From positions 2,365,181-2,429,180 of the forward strand of contig CP013099.1 of NCBI GenBank assembly GCA_001447805.1: a DNA stretch of 64,000 nucleotides, written 5' to 3'. How positions within the stretch are numbered: position 1 is the stretch's first letter; each line of letters starts with the position of its first letter. Position numbers and translations under genes: made by a program. Below the pieces are notes generated by a model. It did not search any database. It worked only from the letters and a program-made list of their open reading frames with translations, and was not told the origin of the DNA. Positions 2,055 through 16,496 of the stretch are shown here, piece by piece. The DNA is from Candidatus Tenderia electrophaga. Lineage in GTDB: Bacteria > Pseudomonadota > Gammaproteobacteria > Tenderiales > Tenderiaceae.

Positions 2055-2072
2055 CTACCCCCCTCTATTGTA
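2055..2072. repeat. degenerate guaA-type attachment site
   Basis: CTACCCCCCTCTATTGTA resembles the 8877-8895 sequence CTACTCCCACTCGATTGTA with one gap and a few substitutions. It stands at the same place relative to the 82-bp left-end repeat, which is the main reason for reading it as a decayed att site. Confidence 0.5.
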
Positions 2073-2154
2073 AACGAGCCATTATTATCTTTTATATTCA
2101 ATGGCTTATTCTCCTGCTAAATCGTAATACCATGAAAAATACCATGCTCAGAAA
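2073..2154. repeat. left-end repeat, copy 1 (pairs with 8896-8977)
   Basis: An 82-bp AT-rich sequence aligns without gaps to 8896-8977 with about 13 mismatches. Both copies contain ATCTTTTATA and two ATACCATG octamers spaced 12 bp apart (2127-2134 and 2139-2146 here). Neither copy is coding. The position directly inside an att-like site suggests a recombinase- or excisionase-binding end. Confidence 0.7.
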
Positions 2155-2205
2155 ATCCTTAAAAATGCTCGAAAAATATTACCGACTAAGCGCCCGGATT
2201 ATGAG

Positions 2206-3762
2206 TCAGGTGTAATAAATCTCGGGCCGGCAGCCGATGCCGTTGCGACGCAGGACGCGCGCGAATGCATCGGCATATGTCTTGGCGGTTTCGGCGGACT
2301 GGCCGATGCGTTCAGCAGAAATCGCGTAGCCGGATTTGTAGTGACGGTGGCCCCGCCCGTTCTTGCGCAACCAACGCGCAAGCGATGTGCGCCCGTCTTC
2401 GATAACGACGATAGCACCTCCGCGATCGCCCTCCATATAGACCTGGTTTTCGACCACGAGTGGCTTGGGCACAAAGGCGCTCATGGCCTCCAGACCCGCC
2501 GCATGTGCGAGGTCGTATAGCGCCTGCCAGCGCTCGTCACCTTTCAGGCTGTCAGAGACGAGAGGCGGCGGTCTGGCCTGCTCTTCAAGCGCAGCATCCT
2601 TCTCGCCCGGATAGGCGGTAACAAATGAGGCGCGCTCGCCAGGTCGCACAATCCAGCCGGTCTCGATTGTCGCGGTCTCCCCGTTCTTCCCGGTGACAGG
2701 CAGATTGGCAGTGAAGCGGACGCCATAGTCATCAATGCGCACATTTTCATAGGTAACATGACCAAGGGCATCTACAAGCTGTCCGTGAAGATAGGTCGAG
2801 TCTGATTTTGTAATACCAAGATGCTCCGCAAAGAATTTTGCCTTACCATTGTTGTCCTTGTGGTCAGGGTTGAGCAAATAGTCTGTGATTTTGGTAGCCT
2901 GTACATTGACCTCATCCGGCGCATCCGGAAGCTGGGCAAGATCCCACTCAAAGTCACGCTCCAGATTGCTTAGTGACGGGCTGTAACTCAAATCACGCAT
3001 GACCTGCTGATGAACATCGAGCGCCATACGCCGCTCCATGCGCATTTCGCTGACGAGGCCACGGGCACTAAGCGTCGTGGGGAGAACTAGCGGCGGAGCG
3101 ACAGCATCAAACTGATCGTAGGGTACGACCCCTAGTCCGCCAGAAGAAAACGTATCGGCCCCGATGAAAGAAAGATTGCCCGTCCCTGGTATACCGCCGC
3201 GAATATACACACGGCCTCCACGCAGGAATGCGTCCTTGAACATCACCTCAATAAACAGGTAGCGGTGAAGCGGATTGCCCAGATCGGGCGAAACGGCTCC
3301 TATATAAAGCGGATGGGAACGCAACTCCTTGTCCATCCGCTCTGCAATATCCGGCGCGACCGCCGGCACGAATGTGGCATCGAGTGAGTGGTGGCCGACA
3401 TTTTCCCAAAAGGTCTCTCGATCTACCGTATGCCATCTTTCAAGGCATGACTCCACGAAGTCTCTGACGAGAGTGGCATAGAGACCCCGATCAGAACGCT
3501 CAGTATGACTCGTCTTCGAAGTCACTGGACCGTCAGGTTTGCGGCGCCTTGCCGGTTCGCCTTTGACTACTGCCGTCTTATAGGAAAGCCGCGCAAGCAG
3601 GACACCACCGCGATAAACGCGCGTCTCCACCGTGCCGTCTGGATCAGCAACTTTCAGTGCGCGCAAGAAAGCTTCGTCCAACCACTCGCCTTTCTTCACA
3701 GGCTCATGCGGTACAACGAACAAAAAAGCAACAGGCAAGGTTTCCGGCGAATCTACAGCCAT
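2206..3762 (-). CDS. Gabija-like operon third gene with DUF6883-like region, function unknown
   Basis: A 518-residue protein with no signal peptide or membrane segment. Residues about 277-386 (LNPDHKDNNGKAKFF ... YGVRF ... TGWIVRPGE ... VTAYPGE) resemble DUF6883, a small domain common at the C-terminus of polymorphic toxins. I recognise it by pattern, not by search. The N-terminal 270 residues and the C-terminal 120 residues, rich in basic and aromatic positions, are unassigned. The start ATG at 3762 overlaps the end of the UvrD-like helicase gene by 10 bases. It is therefore the last gene of a coupled three-gene operon with the helicase and OLD nuclease. Canonical Gabija has only the nuclease and helicase, so this could be an effector, an inhibitor or an accessory nuclease. 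Confidence 0.7.
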   Translation of the reverse strand: MAVDSPETLPVAFLFVVPHEPVKKGEWLDEAFLRALKVADPDGTVETRVYRGGVLLARLSYKTAVVKGEPARRRKPDGPVTSKTSHTERSDRGLYATLVRDFVESCLERWHTVDRETFWENVGHHSLDATFVPAVAPDIAERMDKELRSHPLYIGAVSPDLGNPLHRYLFIEVMFKDAFLRGGRVYIRGGIPGTGNLSFIGADTFSSGGLGVVPYDQFDAVAPPLVLPTTLSARGLVSEMRMERRMALDVHQQVMRDLSYSPSLSNLERDFEWDLAQLPDAPDEVNVQATKITDYLLNPDHKDNNGKAKFFAEHLGITKSDSTYLHGQLVDALGHVTYENVRIDDYGVRFTANLPVTGKNGETATIETGWIVRPGERASFVTAYPGEKDAALEEQARPPPLVSDSLKGDERWQALYDLAHAAGLEAMSAFVPKPLVVENQVYMEGDRGGAIVVIEDGRTSLARWLRKNGRGHRHYKSGYAISAERIGQSAETAKTYADAFARVLRRNGIGCRPEIYYT

Positions 3763-5780
3763 GCGATACCACCATCCTGCTGTACACGCCCTACACGCCA
3801 GTTTCTACCCTTAAGAACCTCAATCTCTTGGGCGTCAAGATTGTCCCGCATTGCAATTGCCAGCAAGTGGGTTGGCCTCGTAAAAGCAACATAGTGCTGC
3901 TTGAGACGAGATTGCATGCGAGCACCTTCGGTGCCTTGGCCGGTCTTCTCGCCTAAAAGCCAGGGACGGAGCGCATTTAAATGGTGGTCGTAAAAGTAAG
4001 TATCGAGCACGAGCGTTGCCGTGTGAGTTTCGCCTTTAACCGAATGGATTGAGCCAACACGGACCTCAACGGTAGGGGCATCCGAAGGAAAGCGGTAAAC
4101 ATTGTCTTTGCGCCTCGCTTTTCGTACTACTTCCTCATCCGGTTCCTCATCAGGCCAGACCAGGAATTCATCCAGATGGACAGGGTTGATGTCGCCCCCT
4201 GTCAATAGCTCGGCAAGCTGAAGAATCACAGGCACCCAGGTCCCTTGCCACTCTTCTGGCCCAATGTCTGTTTCATCATCAATGATGCGCACAACGAGAG
4301 CCAGATAACGCTCTTTCAAGTCGGCCTGCCCTTCCAGCAATTCCAGGATCGAGCGATGCCGTCTCTTATGCTGCGTACGCTTCACAGCAGGATCAGCAAT
4401 CTGTACAGCGCGATAAATACCGTCAGCTATGCGATCGACGACGAAATGAATATCACCATCCGCACCAGCTGCATTCCAGCCAGCTGCAATATATTGATGA
4501 AACGTCTTGGGCCTGGGCTCGGCATAGCTCATCTCATGGTCATACTCAGGCCAATAATGCGCGACAAAACGTGGTGCGTTAGTATTTTCACCGGGACGGT
4601 GAACACCACCAACAGCCGTAAATGTACCCTCCGCCAGGTCTTCGTCGGAAAACAGCGCGCGCAGGTATCTCGCGTAACATTCGAGCACGCTGGTGATCGT
4701 GTCGTCTCGAAATAGAATGACGGCATGCCTGCCGTGCGTTTCGGCTTGCACCTTATGCACGGGCGGTCCCAGCCCAATCAGACCCTGTGGATTCAGACCA
4801 AGCGGATTGGCAAGATCAGCAATTTGCTGACCGAAGCGGTGGCTATTGGGAATATCGCGCCTGATGGCATCCACGGGAAACAGGTCACTCTGCGCGCCGG
4901 TCGCCCCGGTGTGCGCATAGATCGCTTGATTAGAGTCTCCATAGCGCTGTCGAATGACAGGATCATCGCCAGCGATAAAAATACGTTGAAGCAATCGTGA
5001 TTGTGACTCACTATTGTCCTGCACTTCATCAATGAAGAGCAGCGGAAATCTCTGCCGAATGATTGCGACAGCTTCCGGATGCTTGTTAAGCAAGTCTTCC
5101 GCCCACATAAACAGCTCTTCGTACCGATAGTACCCGTCTTCTGTACACTGACGAGCAAGCCGACAAAGTTGTTGTGCTGCTGGCTTATTTGGATCCACGA
5201 ATACCTGATTGCCGTTTTCCTTGAGAATCAGGAAATCAGGCGACGCAACATGCCAGCTACCGACAAAGTTTACGTTGGGATGCTTCTCCTTGTTAGCGAC
5301 AGTGGTTCTAAGCGCCGTGTATTGATTGAATGACAGTAGACGGCGCCGATGCTGTTCACAAAGAGCATCGTCTATAACTGCAATGGGATAACCCAGTGAA
5401 CGCAGCCACGGGATGGCGAGAAATTCGTTCACGAAACCGTGAATCGTCCCGACATAGTGGGGATAGGAAAGCAGCGTTGCTCCGGTGGCCGTACGACCGA
5501 GACTGCGCTCGATTTCACGGCGCGCCGCGTTTGTGTGCGATAACACGCAGATGCCTGAGCGCCTCGACTTCCACTTCCGCGCGAGAATCGCGAGTTTGGC
5601 GATAAGCAAGGTCGTTTTGCCGCTACCGGGACAGGCTTCGACATCAAGCGTTTCATCGCTGAGCAGCACGGCCGCGCGCGGATCATTGCCATCATCTCCG
5701 TGAAATGCCGTAGGCGGTAACCCAAGCACTTCACAGGCCCACCGGATATCACGATCATCGACAGGCGGCACTCTGAACAT
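3753..5780 (-). CDS. UvrD/Rep-like superfamily 1 helicase of an OLD-helicase defence operon (GajB-like)
   Basis: A 675-residue SF1A helicase. Walker A is at residues 49-57 (ACPGSGKTT), motif Ia follows (VLSHTNAA), Walker B is LLFIDEVQD at about 247-255, a motif V-like stretch is SIHSVKGETHTATL near 577-590, and motif VI is VAFTRPTHLLAIA near 631. All motor motifs look intact. Helicases of this kind sit next to class 2 OLD nucleases; in Gabija (GajA-GajB) the pair cuts or disables phage DNA. This one is longer than the approximately 490-residue Bacillus GajB, so it may be a sister system rather than Gabija proper. It starts 4 bases after the nuclease stop and overlaps the third gene by 10 bases. 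If the nuclease gene is really frameshifted, the helicase may be an orphan. Confidence 0.85.
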   Translation of the reverse strand: MFRVPPVDDRDIRWACEVLGLPPTAFHGDDGNDPRAAVLLSDETLDVEACPGSGKTTLLIAKLAILARKWKSRRSGICVLSHTNAARREIERSLGRTATGATLLSYPHYVGTIHGFVNEFLAIPWLRSLGYPIAVIDDALCEQHRRRLLSFNQYTALRTTVANKEKHPNVNFVGSWHVASPDFLILKENGNQVFVDPNKPAAQQLCRLARQCTEDGYYRYEELFMWAEDLLNKHPEAVAIIRQRFPLLFIDEVQDNSESQSRLLQRIFIAGDDPVIRQRYGDSNQAIYAHTGATGAQSDLFPVDAIRRDIPNSHRFGQQIADLANPLGLNPQGLIGLGPPVHKVQAETHGRHAVILFRDDTITSVLECYARYLRALFSDEDLAEGTFTAVGGVHRPGENTNAPRFVAHYWPEYDHEMSYAEPRPKTFHQYIAAGWNAAGADGDIHFVVDRIADGIYRAVQIADPAVKRTQHKRRHRSILELLEGQADLKERYLALVVRIIDDETDIGPEEWQGTWVPVILQLAELLTGGDINPVHLDEFLVWPDEEPDEEVVRKARRKDNVYRFPSDAPTVEVRVGSIHSVKGETHTATLVLDTYFYDHHLNALRPWLLGEKTGQGTEGARMQSRLKQHYVAFTRPTHLLAIAMRDNLDAQEIEVLKGRNWRVGRVQQDGGIAWL

Positions 5781-5784
5781 TGGC

Positions 5785-7804
5785 CTAATCCTGCATCTGA
5801 TCTTTTGCAGCGGGTTCGGCTTCTGGCGCTGGCGAGTCGGAGGTCACATGCTGGATAGCATCGACGATGTAATTCGGAAGAACAGCCTTCCATTCCGCCG
5901 GTATGCGCACGTGACTTTGACCAGTACGCGCGAGGATTCGTGCGAGATACTGGGCCGTGACAGACTTCGAGACTGTGCCCTTCGCGAGGGGCGCATAGAT
6001 CCGGGCCGCACGCTCGTCTTCTGACATGGCCTCCTCGGCGAATGTCTTCCAGTCCTTTAGTGCCTGCCGCGTAACACCAATGGCCTTTACCGTCTCCGAT
6101 GCGATGTCGTCGTCCTTCTTCGCCAAGGCAATGGCCAGAAACAGTTCGCGCCCCAGTCCGGCACGGGCAAGATCGTACTCAAGCGTCCAGTAGTCCGAAA
6201 CAAAGGTCTCAACGCTCTGGCCGCTTGCCCGCGCACGGATCGCCTGTTTGTGCTGGTCCAGCTCCCCTTCCCCGAAATCTAATTCGGCCTTCCAACGGCG
6301 ATTCTGGGGCTGGGGCCACGCCTCCCCGGCATTCACCTTACCGATGATCTTGGGAGCACAGTCGGGCATCACATCCGTATCGGCGATACACGCAACCGGA
6401 ATGCCGATCTCGCCGCCCTCCGCGGGATTCATTCTCTGGAAAATCCGTGCATATCGCCGGAACCCGGTACCCCCGACATTGACAATGGAAACCCCGCTCT
6501 CGGTCAGACCGTGGTCAATCAACCCAGCAATTGTAGGCACAAGAATATTTTCGGCATCGCCTTCAACAATGATGACACCGCGCGCGAAGAATAGATTGGC
6601 CTTCGTTACGTCGAGGAAACGCTGCAGGAACCGGTAGTCGGAAGGACTGAGGTTCGTCTCTCCTGACGCGAGGGAAAACGCTTTTCCTCCCTGAAGCAGG
6701 AGAAGATTGTCAAGGTCGATTGCGGATGCAAGATTGGGGCTGTGTGTTGTGACAAGTATCTGAATGTCGTGGCCGCCACCGACTGGCTGCGCTCTGTCTT
6801 GCAGAAAACGCATAAGTCGAAGCTGCCGCTGCGGATGAAGATGTGCTTCGGGTTCCTCAATCATCAGGAACGGGAAACCATCCTCTTCGGAACCGAGCAG
6901 AAGCAGTTCACAAGCCATGAACAGGATATTGTTCGAGCCGAGTCCTCTGTTGCGTGGCAAATGATCGGCTCCGGCCTCTTGAAGCTGAAGCTCAAGCTTT
7001 TCCAGGAGTTGCCGCAATCTCGCCGCTTCATCACCGGTCGCTACACCGATATCACCGCTAAGATCGGAGCCTGCAAAGGACAGATTCTTTAGATAGTCTT
7101 CGTTCAGTCGGTCGCGTGCACCCGTGAGGCCGACGTGACCTTTGAGGAGCGCGTTGGCGAAGTCCCCAATTCCAAGAATGCTGAGCGTTGCCGGGTCAGC
7201 CGGCGGACCAGCGGCATGGTCGTATGGCACACCGGCTGTAGCGATGTCGTCCGTGTACTGGAGAATATGCGAAAGACGTGATCCACGTCCAGCAGACAGC
7301 GCACGCTCTGCGTCTCGCAGGGGACGAAGATAGGTTGCGCAAAGCAGGTTTCGACTCTCCGGGTCGAAAACCGGGCCATCCGCGTCGACGCCGGAGCGGA
7401 CTTCAACTGACACATAACGGCGGTGTCTTGCGCGCCTTTCGGTGGCGAGCGCTTTCCAGTTCAGGTAGATGACAGGTACGCGACTGCCTTCGTGCTCTTC
7501 ATATGTCAGATATTCGGCAAATGCACCGGTGTCAGAACGTGTAAGCCCAGCGAAGCTGGCAGCGTATGCGAATCTCTTTACTCTGCGTGCCTTCAGCGGG
7601 GCAGTGAAAGTCATCATCATCGATGCGAAAATATTCCTGATCACGGGTACCGAGCGCAAGCCGCAGCGCGTCAACAATTACGGTCTTCCCGGAGTCGTTT
7701 TCGCCAACGATTGCGGTTAGTCCCGGCCGCAATCTGAGCAGGGCGGCATTCTCGCCCTCACCAAACAGGCGGAAGTTCTCGACTTTGAGCTCCGAAATAT
7801 ACAT
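5785..7804 (-). pseudogene. OLD-family ATP-dependent nuclease (GajA-like), interrupted by a +1 frameshift near 7555
   Basis: Two frames together encode one OLD-family nuclease. From the ATG at 7804, the first frame gives residues 1-83 with the N-terminal beta strand (MYISELKVENFRLFG) and Walker A (GENDSGKT, 34-41); it then runs into a stop at 7532. The second frame, entered by skipping one base at about 7555 (CAG, extra C, TTC), continues to 5785. It carries the signature-like GLGSNNILF, Walker B FLMIEEPEAHLHP, the His switch TTHSPN, and Toprim residues VEGDAEN and ADTDVMPD. The joined product would be 672 residues. It lies 63 bases after the antitoxin gene and 4 bases before the helicase. 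Either the strain's copy is broken or there is a one-base sequencing error; a programmed shift is possible but shows no obvious slippery site. Confidence 0.85.
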
Positions 7805-7867
7805 CGCCGCCTCTCGTACGTCATTCGTTAGCTATGAGCCACTTCCCAGATGACCAAACCACTTGTT

Positions 7868-8149
7868 CTAAGCAGCAATTTCAATCTTGATATTCTTACC
7901 CAACGCTCTGGCTGCACGCTCCAGGGTCAGCAGCGTCACTGAAGGATTATCGGGATCAAGCAACCGTTCCAATGCGGAGCGGCTGGTTTTCATCCGCTTG
8001 GCCAGTTGGGTCTTGTTGAGTTTCTGCGCCTTCATCAATTCCTCGAGTTGAAAGGCAAGCACACGTTTAACTGCGATAGCTTCCGCTTCCGCAAGCACAC
8101 CTTCCTCTTCCAGAAAATCATCGAAGTTACTGCCAATGTGTTTGCTCAT
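7868..8149 (-). CDS. HigA-type XRE-family antitoxin
   Basis: A 93-residue protein with a helix-turn-helix of the Cro/XRE type in its C-terminal half (NKTQLAKRMKTSRSALERLL, then LTLERAARALG). This is the usual form of antitoxins that pair with Gp49/RelE-like toxins. It would neutralise the toxin and repress the operon. The ATG at 8149 was chosen because it lies one base after the toxin stop (8151-8153) and a purine-rich stretch precedes it; a longer frame to 8233 would bury the start inside the toxin gene. Toxin-first order is typical of higBA. Confidence 0.85.
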   Translation of the reverse strand: MSKHIGSNFDDFLEEEGVLAEAEAIAVKRVLAFQLEELMKAQKLNKTQLAKRMKTSRSALERLLDPDNPSVTLLTLERAARALGKNIKIEIAA

Positions 8150-8150
8150 G

Positions 8151-8495
8151 TTACTTCTCCAGGTTGGCTTTGCGATCTTTAGCCAATTGCAAATCAGCTT
8201 GAGGTGTCTTCTGGGATTTCTTGATGAAGCCATGCAGCAAAATCATCTTTTCACCCTTTACTGTAAACAGAATTCGAGCAATACGTTGATCAAGCCGACA
8301 CCTGACTTCCCATAGTCCGGGCTCCATTTTTCGAACCACTGGCATTCCGATAGGCCAGCCATATTGAACGGTCTTAATGTCGCCACCGATCGTCCTCTTG
8401 TCTTGTTTGCTCAGGCCCTGTAACCACACGCGAACCGGTTCATTTCCCGACTCCGTTCGGTAAAAAACCACTTCAAGAGGCATATCGGCATCCAT
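8151..8495 (-). CDS. HigB/Gp49-type RelE-superfamily toxin
   Basis: A 114-residue protein of the phage-derived Gp49-like (DUF891) toxin family: opening strand PLEVVFYRTESGNEPVRVWL, middle DKRTIGGDIKTVQYGWP, and the typical core GLWEVRCRLDQRIARILFTV followed by ILLHGFIKKSQKTP. Members are ribosome-dependent mRNA endonucleases. The catalytic-type basic and aromatic residues of the C-terminal half appear to be present. An alternative start lies four codons in (8483). A perfect inverted repeat 10 bases upstream of the ATG is the probable autoregulatory operator. The pair sits upstream of the OLD operon in the same orientation and may help maintain the element. Confidence 0.85.
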   Translation of the reverse strand: MDADMPLEVVFYRTESGNEPVRVWLQGLSKQDKRTIGGDIKTVQYGWPIGMPVVRKMEPGLWEVRCRLDQRIARILFTVKGEKMILLHGFIKKSQKTPQADLQLAKDRKANLEK

Positions 8496-8504
8496 GTGAA
8501 AAAG

Positions 8505-8522
8505 TGTACCATATTTGGTACA
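8505..8522. promoter_or_regulatory. operator palindrome of the higBA-type pair
   Basis: TGTACCATATTTGGTACA is a perfect inverted repeat with 7-bp arms around TATT. It ends 10 bases before the toxin start, as expected for a site bound by a dimeric HTH antitoxin overlapping the promoter. Confidence 0.65.
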
Positions 8523-8876
8523 ATTTACAAGCCTTTGATCATGAAAGCTAGAAATCTGAGAACAAACAACTTTGCCGCCCAGAGAGGGAGGGAAGTGATG
8601 TGAATGAGTTCATGGTCCTACAGGCGCCTGATCCAGTGTGACTCGTACTTGGTAACCAATACCATGACGGGCTCGACATGCATGGCATGGTATAGGTGCG
8701 TCACGCTGATTGTGAGTATGGCGATACCATGATCTATACCATTGGAAAACGGTACTAACTGCTTGCCGATGCCTGTCAGTGCCAGATGTTGCCAGACAAC
8801 AATGTGGGTAAGTCATTGGTTTTGCGGGCTGACTGCGTATTGATGCCTGTCAGTGCCAGCCAGTGCCAGATCTGGC
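8523..8876. other. non-coding right end of element 1, with repeated short motifs
   Basis: No convincing gene. The stretch holds several copies of an ATACCATG octamer in both orientations (8659-8666, 8686-8693 inverted, 8724-8731, and ATACCATT at 8736-8743) and two exact copies of an 18-mer (8768-8785 and 8842-8859). These look like protein-binding arrays at a recombination end. Confidence 0.55.
8768..8859. repeat. two copies of an 18-bp right-end repeat
   Basis: GATGCCTGTCAGTGCCAG occurs exactly at 8768-8785 and 8842-8859. A close form, AATGCCAGTCAGTGCCAG, sits at 13347-13364. The second and third copies end 17 and 20 bases before the att cores at 8877 and 13385. The shared placement suggests arm-type binding sites at the right end of each element. 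Confidence 0.7.
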
Positions 8877-8895
8877 CTACTCCCACTCGATTGTA
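8877..8895. repeat. internal guaA-type attachment site
   Basis: CTACTCCCACTCGAT at 8877-8891 is identical to the guaA 3' end at 13385-13399 (the complement of the codons for the last residues IEWE plus TAG). The following TTGTA recurs in the degraded site at 2055-2072. No guaA coding sequence is attached to it, so a repeated insertion target is the simplest explanation. Confidence 0.75.
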
Positions 8896-8977
8896 GATAA
8901 GCCATTTTTATCTTTTATACTCAATAGCTTTTTTTCATGCTAAACGGTGATACCATGAAAAATACCATGTTCAGAAA
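8896..8977. repeat. left-end repeat, copy 2 (pairs with 2073-2154)
   Basis: Ungapped partner of 2073-2154. It has the same two ATACCATG octamers 12 bp apart (8950-8957 and 8962-8969) and ATCTTTTATA. The rest of the gap up to 9229 holds no gene that I can support; a plus-strand frame at 8937-9197 is probably chance. Confidence 0.7.
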
Positions 8978-11429: not shown

Positions 11430-11463
11430 TAAATTGAGCAGAAGCGTTTATAGGAGGTTTGAA

Positions 11464-12424
11464 ATGTTAATCAATGGGCAGTGGGCGAGAGATTTTCATC
11501 CCGTACAGGGTACCGACGACGAAGGCGGATTTGTTCGAGAGCAATCCCAATTTCGCAACTGGATCACAACTGATGGTAGCCCGGGACCAACCGGTGAAGG
11601 AGGTTTTGTCGCGGAACCTGACCGCTATCATCTGTATGTTGCACTGATTTGTCCCTGGGCCTCGCGCACATTGATGGCTCGTAAACTCAAGGGCCTGGAA
11701 GATGTCATTTCGGTTACCGTGCTCGATCCCCGCCTGACTGAAAAGGTCTGGCGTTTTGGTGACGACAAGAGGGCAATTCCAGGAACTCAATCTGACTCAC
11801 TGTACGGCGCTGAATACCTTTACCAGATCTACCTGCGTGCAAAGTCTGATTATACTGGTCAGGTCACTGTTCCCGTGCTTTGGGACAAGCATAAAGAGAC
11901 CATCATCAACAACGAATCTTCCGACATTATTCGCATGTTAAATGACGGGTTTGGCAACCTGGCCAGGGAATGCATCGATCTCTACCCAATTGATCTACGC
12001 ACTGAAATCGACGACGTCAACGATCGTCTCTACGACAATTTCAACAACGGCGTGTACCGCGCCGGTTTTGCGACAACCCAGATAGCCTATGAACGAGCTG
12101 TCCAGGACAGTATTTGATAGTCTGGACTGGATTGATCGGCGACTCGACAATCAAGACTATCTGGTTGGCGACCGTCTCACCGAGTCTGATGTGCGAGCAT
12201 TCGTCACCCTGATCCGCTTCGACCTCGCCTATCACGGGCTCTTCAAGACCAATCTCCGCCAGCTGCGCGACTATCGGAATATCACTGCCTATATGAAACG
12301 TATCTACGAGCTGCCGGGCATCGCAGAAACGGTATCGCCAGAGCATATTAAAATTGGATACTACTCCATCCGCGCCCTGAATCCTTCGGGTATCGTCCCG
12401 ATCGGCCCCACGGAATTATGCTAA
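11464..12424 (+). pseudogene. yqjG: glutathionyl-hydroquinone reductase (YqjG/Xi-class GST), +1 frameshift near 12105
   Basis: Two overlapping frames match one protein of the Xi-class glutathione transferases, which reduce glutathionyl-hydroquinones. The first frame starts at ATG 11464 behind an ideal AGGAGG and contains FRNWITTDGSPGPTGEGGF, the catalytic-Cys motif LICPWASRTL, and VPVLWDKHKETIINNESS. It continues to GFATTQIAYERAVQ and stops at 12117. Skipping one G in the pair at 12105-12106 joins it to TVFDSLDWIDRRL, which continues to PSGIVPIGPTELC at 12424. The join restores the family spacing exactly. The joined length is about 319 residues (E. coli YqjG is 328). As sequenced the protein would lose its alpha-helical C-terminal domain. 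Confidence 0.85.
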
Positions 12425-13346: not shown

Positions 13347-13364
13347 AATGCCAGTCAGTGCCAG
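13347..13364. repeat. right-end repeat of element 2
   Basis: AATGCCAGTCAGTGCCAG differs at two positions from the 18-mers at 8768 and 8842. It lies 20 bases before the guaA end, matching the position of the 8842 copy relative to 8877. Confidence 0.6.
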
Positions 13365-13384
13365 TCATTGCCTGGCAGTGCCGG

Positions 13385-13399
13385 CTACTCCCACTCGAT
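13385..13399. repeat. guaA-borne attachment site (attB-like)
   Basis: The last codons and stop of guaA, read on the plus strand as CTACTCCCACTCGAT, are repeated at 8877-8891. The 3' end of guaA is a known integration site for genomic islands in bacteria; insertion there keeps guaA intact because the repeat supplies the end of the gene. Confidence 0.75.
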
Positions 13400-14962
13400 G
13401 GTCCCCGGCGGTTTGCCGGTGATGTCATAGACCACGCGCGAGATGCCCTTCACCTCGTTGACGATACGGCGCGAGACGTGGTCGAGGAATTCATAGGGCA
13501 GATGGGCCCAGCGCGCGGTCATGAAGTCGATGGTCTCCACTGCGCGCAGGGCTACCACCCATTCGTAACGACGCCCGTCGCCGGTGACGCCGACGGATTT
13601 GACCGGCAGGAAGACGGCGAAGGCCTGCGAGGTCTTGTCATAGAGATCGTGCTTGCGCAGTTCTTCGATGAAGATATGATCGGCCAAACGCAGCACGTCG
13701 GCGTATTCCTTTTTCACCTCACCCAAAATACGCACACCCAGACCGGGGCCGGGAAAGGGGTGGCGATAGACCATGTCATAGGGCAGGCCCAGTTCCAGGC
13801 CGAGCTTGCGCACCTCGTCCTTGAACAGCTCGCGCAGCGGCTCTAATAATTTCAGTTTCATGGTCTCCGGCAGGCCGCCGACGTTGTGGTGCGATTTGAT
13901 GACATGGGCCTTGCCGGTCTTGGAGCCGGCCGATTCGATGACATCGGGATAGATGGTGCCCTGGGCCAGCCACGTGGCCGCGGTCAGCTTACCGGCCTCT
14001 TCGTCGAAGATATCGATGAACATGTTGCCGATGATTTTGCGCTTCTTCTCCGGATCGCTTTCACCCTTCAGGGCATCGAGAAAACGCTGTTCGGCGTCGA
14101 TGCGGATCACCTTCACGCCCATGTGTTCGGCGAAGGTGGCCATGACCTGGTCGCCCTCCTTGTGGCGCAACAGACCATTATCGACAAACACACAGATGAG
14201 CTGATCACCGATGGCCTTGTGCAACAGGGCGGCGACCACCGACGAATCGACGCCGCCGGACAGACCCAGCACCACCTCGTCGTCGCCCACCATCTCACGC
14301 ACCTGAGCGATGGCCTCCTCGACGATATTGCCCGGCGTCCAGGCGGCGGCGCAGTCGCAGATCTCGTGCACGAAGCGTTCGATGATGCGCTGGCCCTGGT
14401 TGGTATGGGTCACCTCGGGGTGGAACTGCAGGCCGTAGAAATGCTTCTCTTCATTGGCGATACCGGCGACGGGGGCCGAGCCGGTAGAGGCCATGAGCTT
14501 GAAGCCCGGCGGCAGGTCGATCACCCGGTCGCCGTGGCTCATCCACACGTCGAGGATGCCGTAGCCTTCCTCGGTGGTGTGGTCTTCAATATCTTTAAGC
14601 AATTGGGTGTGGCCGCGGGCGCGCACCTGGGCATAGCCGTATTCGTGATGATCGGCGTTTTCCACCTTGCCGCCCAATTGCTGGGTCATGGTCTGCATGC
14701 CGTAACAGATGCCCAGCACCGGCACGTCCAGTTCGAACACGACTTGCGGCGCCAGCGGCGCATTGGCCGCCACGGTGCTCTCCGGCCCGCCCGAGAGGAT
14801 AATGCCCTTGGGCGCGAATTCGCGAATGGCGGTTTCATCCATGTCCCAGGCATGCAGCTCGGAATAGACGCCGGCCTCGCGCACGCGACGGGCGATCAGC
14901 TGGGTGTACTGGGAACCGAAATCGAGAATAAGGATACGGTCGTGATGGATGTCTTTGCTCAT
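13385..14962 (-). CDS. guaA: GMP synthase (glutamine-hydrolysing)
   Basis: A 525-residue enzyme that converts XMP to GMP with glutamine and ATP in the cytoplasm. The class I glutamine amidotransferase domain is N-terminal ([17 protein letters not shown], nucleophile in [20 protein letters not shown] with the catalytic His). The ATP-pyrophosphatase domain starts near 208, with the PP-loop [10 protein letters not shown]. The dimerisation domain ends in KPPGTIEWE. Length is the family norm. It follows guaB by 61 bases in the same direction, and the pair is normally one operon. Its 3' end serves as the boundary of the accessory region. Confidence 0.98.
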
Positions 14963-15023
14963 CGGCGTCTCTGGCTTAAGGGTTAAAACAAACAGGCCGA
15001 CAGAACACCGGCTGCTGGCTTAT

Positions 15024-16496
<1,473 letters not shown>

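Follow-up and report, generated by a model that had tools for sequence, protein, structure and literature searches.

The window analysed here, a 64,000-nucleotide stretch of the Candidatus Tenderia electrophaga genome, carries on its minus strand the OLD-family nuclease gene of a Gabija anti-phage system, gajA (5785-7804), encoded across two reading frames. This raises the question of whether the frame change is a genuine mutation that broke the gene, a device by which the two frames are joined or switched, or an error in the published sequence. A sequence-only reading of this DNA had described an OLD nuclease whose Walker A motif is cut off by a +1 shift. The nuclease identity was confirmed by matches to the PADLOC GajA model and to the Pfam OLD-like TOPRIM family, and the shift is evident from the two frames, from a one-base gap that opens when the gene is aligned with its closest relative, and from the span of 2020 nt, i.e. 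673 codons plus 1 nt. The stop predicted after 90 residues was found at 7532-7534 (TGA), the predicted 672 residues of a rejoined protein equal the single-frame length and are present in one frame in the closest relative, and the downstream genes, described as looking intact, indeed include an uninterrupted gajB. The assignment to Gabija and a second broken gene nearby are additions to that reading.

The 5′ part of gajA (7532..7804, minus strand) is a 90-residue open frame that begins with the ATG at 7804 and takes in the first section of the ABC ATPase domain, including the Walker A motif GENDSGKT (7682..7705, minus strand; residues 34-41 of this part as counted on the translation). The 3′ part (5785..7677, minus strand) lies in a second frame, which is open from 7677 to the stop at 5785-5787 and preceded by a stop at 7678-7680, and comprises what remains of the ATPase domain, together with the OLD-like TOPRIM nuclease (PF20469, residues 363-435 of this part; 6373..6591, minus strand, after conversion of the Pfam match to window coordinates). 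Both frames are open together over 143 nt. The one-base gap and a switch of the coding signal at 7565/7566 place the frame change approximately at 7549..7566 on the minus strand; codons 1 to ~82, Walker A included, are in the first frame and the TOPRIM nuclease is in the second. The PADLOC GajA model PDLC00099 matched the 5′ part over profile positions 1-81 (E 3.1e-28) and the 3′ part over positions 71-621 of 626 (E 4.7e-171), indicating that the two pieces, which match one profile end to end, are one gene. The Pfam family AAA_15 was likewise divided, its start being found in the 5′ part and its end, together with the OLD-like TOPRIM, in the 3′ part; NCBIfam at its own cut-offs gave no match for either piece. 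The coding-signal score at the switch was 13.5, exceeded by that of only one other among the 84 same-strand frame changes scored in 464 kb of this genome. As both sides match one family strongly and the score ranks this high, the frame break is beyond chance.

Directly downstream of gajA lies gajB (3753..5780, minus strand), coding for an uninterrupted UvrD-like helicase of 675 residues that matches PADLOC GajB (E 1.8e-176) and Pfam PF00580. Both gene families of Gabija are represented, gajA by PADLOC GajA, AAA_15 and OLD-like TOPRIM over two frames and gajB by a UvrD/SF1 helicase; of the two full-length proteins that the system requires, GajA is lacking because its gene ends after 90 codons as sequenced. 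Judged from its sequence, the locus is a broken Gabija copy by descent and, in the sequenced form, not a working member. The third gene of the run (2206..3762, minus strand) overlaps gajB by 10 nt and encodes a DUF6883 protein of 518 residues. A DUF6883 gene also adjoins gajB in the closest relative, where it is shortened to 347 residues, and in the one plasmid relative of it that we examined (L148, 11.9 kb) no Gabija genes are listed beside it. Upstream of gajA are a Gp49/HigB-like toxin-type ORF (8151-8495, minus strand) and an HTH antitoxin-type ORF (7868-8233, minus strand), together spanning 7868..8495 and both uninterrupted, which from their families we infer to be a toxin-antitoxin pair.

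The sequence-only reading had proposed a comparison with relatives, in which a shared two-frame layout would point to a programmed shift. We compared 22 loci whose match extends along most of the nuclease, and in all 22 a single frame runs across the junction; none has the two-frame layout, which contradicts a programmed shift. The set comprises L003, L020-L025, L040 and 14 plasmid regions (L100-L113, two of which, L102 and L105, derive from one strain). L020-L025 and L040 are seven of 80 loci from one search, the more distant of which lie outside the count, and the plasmid regions are 14 of 20 plasmid records listed, at least 80% coverage having been found for 50 of 2061 matching plasmid records. 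In four loci (L003, L100, L108 and L110) the Walker A pattern was unmatched, yet the N-terminal alignment spans residues 1 to 84-86 in the same frame as the part after the junction. Within the gajA match no frame break was seen in 21 of the 22 homologues, the exception being L100 with a break around residue 200.

The closest relative, L021, belongs to the gammaproteobacterial MAG S140_27 (WFVD01000014.1) and has gajA in one frame of 672 residues. Its DNA identity to the window is 88% across the toxin-antitoxin-type pair and gajA (2984 nt) and 85.6% across positions 2854-8896, a range that includes gajB; the alignment shows the one-base gap at the gajA junction. In a search of 56 genomes 15 matched at E <= 0.001, but besides the window's own genome only G007, the source of L003, did so along most of the protein. 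Among 369 genomes of the class four matched at E <= 1e-40, namely the genome itself, G081, whose contig coordinates are identical to those of L021 and whose match we therefore take to be that locus, G007, already in the set, and G152, which the 22-locus count excludes. Only one close relative is known, and each species is represented by one genome in the collections. Viral contigs yielded three distant gajA relatives and a phage collection six partial matches; as none covers 80% of the query, they say nothing on the junction. The one-base shift is best explained as private to this genome among the genomes compared and as postdating the split from L021.

We also compared substitution in the pieces of gajA with that in gajB. 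Relative to L021, dN/dS in gajA was 0.085 over the first 80 codons and 0.145 over the 587 that follow the junction; the value for gajB was 0.149. When amino-acid changes were assigned with outgroups to the window and the L021 branch, the ratios were 2:1 for the first part of gajA (no change unplaced), 30:28 for the part after the junction (18 unplaced) and 39:41 for gajB (35 unplaced). By these substitution measures gajA is without apparent decay compared with gajB. The absence of excess change suggests that normal constraint acted on gajA up to the very recent past, or acts on it even now, and that the break is either young, if real, or an error.

The 143-nt overlap of the frames would permit a programmed +1 ribosomal frameshift that joins both parts and thereby sets GajA output, and the 3′ piece shows purifying selection across the entire divergence from L021. 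Such a signal should consist of a slippery site with a stimulator, either a Shine-Dalgarno-like element or an RNA structure, and should be conserved, but neither this combination nor a conserved two-frame layout was found. Inspection of 7530-7580 by eye revealed no recognisable slippery +1 site, CUU-UGA-like or of another type, and the stop of the 5′ frame, in the context TTC TGA C, lies 3′ of the point where homology already requires the second frame. RNA folding of the junction region was not better than that of shuffles (z-scores +1.12 and -0.70). The single frame in all 22 homologues, including the one with 88% DNA identity, led us to reject this mechanism, which we regard as very improbable. 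Phase variation had been suggested as well, i.e. an on/off switch through slipped-strand mispairing. Slippage typically produces one-base indels, and phase variation can occur in defence genes generally, so that the kind of change would fit. The sequence at the switch does not: the junction was searched for tandem repeats and none was detected, gene nt 191-300 contain no run of at least four identical bases other than a CCCC ~40 nt upstream of the junction, where both frames are open, and L021 differs at the junction by ordinary substitutions too and not by repeat number. Phase variation was thus rejected for want of a repeat and is likewise very improbable in our assessment. The split gene might also still be used, since the 143 nt open in both frames would allow translation to begin internally at the ATG triplet 7614-7620; such a start or low-level +1 slippage could yield P-loop-less GajA or a little GajA. 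Continued use is compatible with the purifying selection on the 3′ piece and would mean a defence kept on standby at a lower cost of self-damage. No convincing Shine-Dalgarno sequence was seen by eye in the 20 nt before the ATG triplet, and we consider continued use highly unlikely. In the parts of the Gabija literature available to us, mentions of frameshifts concern another gene or titles of references.

Of the origins proposed in the sequence-only reading, a recent defect and a sequencing error remain, the phase-variable one being unsupported. If the extra base arose in sequencing or assembly, the strain carries an ordinary intact gajA. This reading accounts for a lone one-base shift in an otherwise uninterrupted gene without signs of relaxed selection, next to an uninterrupted gajB and uninterrupted toxin-antitoxin-type ORFs, and the lack of decay in gajA fits it equally well. 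Residual indel errors, however, usually fall in homopolymer runs, and none of at least four identical bases lies within ~40 nt of the junction; moreover, the genome is in two contigs and rated 100% complete. For the quality of the assembly at large we surveyed the window and 20 sampled 20-kb stretches of its genome (464 kb in total), in which same-strand frame changes were scored by coding signal. An earlier rule for unnatural switches had flagged only 4 of 118 planted shifts, although 107 of them were seen, and was replaced by the scored version, which at a cut-off score of at least 10 recovers 138 of 197 planted one-base shifts. Three of the 84 frame changes reached the cut-off. Besides gajA these were two that looked natural on inspection: a tandem repeat preceding a regulator-like gene, and what we take from the translations to be a queF-like gene with a kinase-like gene downstream. 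Three weaker frame changes also appeared natural. Since the two other calls are natural-looking, frame errors do not appear to pervade the assembly, and of the strong candidates that we inspected across the 464 kb no other was a convincing frame break; gajA, the second broken gene and five others of the 84 were inspected one by one. This second gene, a YqjG-like glutathionyl-hydroquinone reductase (11434-12117 / 12089-12424, plus strand), has its GST N and C domains on separate pieces. Its homologue L138 from a same-genus genome is in a single frame of 331 residues, and the window's genome has a further YqjG copy with an open frame of 355 aa (G000:C1:3438241). The YqjG break was found by eye and scored 7.3, below the cut-off, suggesting that other breaks of this strength may have been missed. 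Lying 4.5 kb from the gajA break, it may reflect locally poor sequence, and the two together could also result from a local assembly fault. On the other hand, neither break is in a long homopolymer, which favours real mutations. Taking these points together, we favour a real, recent loss-of-function mutation with moderate confidence, and regard a sequence error as possible, though the less probable origin.

Both broken genes are located in islands at the 3′ end of guaA, YqjG in the island adjoining that of Gabija. The core of the guaA 3′ end, GAGTGGGA, is present in exact copies at 13385-13398 and 8877-8890, the latter (minus strand) being an att-like repeat of the final 14 nt of guaA that forms one edge of the Gabija island. 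Two copies with at most two mismatches were found, compared with a mean of 0.25 expected, and at least two occurred in 3 of 100 shuffles. The far edge of the Gabija island (2059..2159, minus strand) consists of a 101-nt repeat (83%) of the segment 8882-8982 and includes the guaA end in degenerate form. These copies and the 101-nt repeat make the region from guaA to 2059 look like two adjoining tandem islands without a recognised integrase: a Pfam scan of 12 ORFs between 2059 and 13385 showed none, the smaller ORFs having been looked over by eye. The first island carries the toxin-antitoxin-type ORFs, Gabija and the DUF6883 gene, the second carries LysR, F420-oxidoreductase, DoxX, YqjG and LigB genes. 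The same core, GAGTGGGA, is described for the guaA attachment site of GIsul2 in the available text of PMC9376610; the islands share with the GIsul2 type the direct repeats of the guaA 3′ end but show no recognised integrase gene of their own next to the att site. On the guaA side (13348-16469) the window shares only 73% DNA identity with the L021 genome. The island is thus more alike between the two genomes than core genes are, as expected for recent island exchange.

If the extra base is truly in the cell's DNA, the one-base shift would end GajA translation after 90 codons. The short product would retain Walker A and be devoid of the rest of the ABC ATPase and of the TOPRIM nuclease; any product of the 3′ piece, made from what would be a weak internal start, would be missing the P loop and the first section of the ATPase domain. 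According to the available parts of the respective papers, Gabija immunity is lost when either gajA or gajB is deleted (PMC10822852), the TOPRIM portion of GajA by itself shows no nuclease activity (PMC8136825), and the N-terminal ATPase domain contributes to formation of the GajA tetramer (PMC10781630), while a K35A substitution in the ATPase-like domain retains in vitro activity (PMC8136825). No working GajA is to be expected because the protein would end before the remaining ATPase and the nuclease, not because a vital Walker A lysine is lost, and in the absence of full GajA, GajB alone should not defend. The Gabija system in the window is most likely a recently inactivated copy, and defence is probably off in this strain, or the published sequence is wrong at the junction. 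The finding bears mainly on annotation: profile scans will call Gabija here on the strong GajA and GajB matches, even though the system should not work as sequenced, and the locus adds, if the base is real, a further case in which counts of defence systems per genome can overstate the functioning number.

Two further OLD-type loci came up in the searches. The genome has a second, distant OLD-type gene of 674 residues (L002, G000:C1 around 2853050) with no helicase recognised among the ORFs of the 3.5 kb covered, and on a Roseibium aggregatum plasmid (L104, 4785-9871) a shorter gajA, single-frame at the junction, is followed by Mu-transposase/TniB/TniQ-type genes instead of gajB.

The Gabija system of Bacillus cereus VD045 has the same order as the window, an OLD-type ATPase and TOPRIM protein followed by a UvrD-like helicase, and the 3′ part of the window's gajA matches PDB entries of GajA (best E 4.8e-07). 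It differs in that the window gene is a distant branch, class 2 OLD structures outscoring GajA in the PDB (6nk8, E 1.6e-14), in the length of the protein (a GajA chain of 578 residues versus 672 for the window gene if in one frame), and in that the window has its gajA split in two frames and a DUF6883 gene after gajB. L100, on plasmid p1 of Sphingomonas morindae (5001-6765), likewise has a broken gajA with an adjoining UvrD-helicase gene, and no gene is listed over its nuclease part in that collection, whose gene table is incomplete; its break, however, occurs later, at about residue 200 of 672, and the window's junction is in one frame there. L021 of S140_27 shares with the window the toxin-antitoxin-type and gajB neighbours and the edge on the guaA side, whereas its gajA is uninterrupted, its third gene is cut to 347 residues and its island sits directly on the guaA end. 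The locus in the window is an ordinary two-gene Gabija of a known kind, either recently broken or mis-sequenced.
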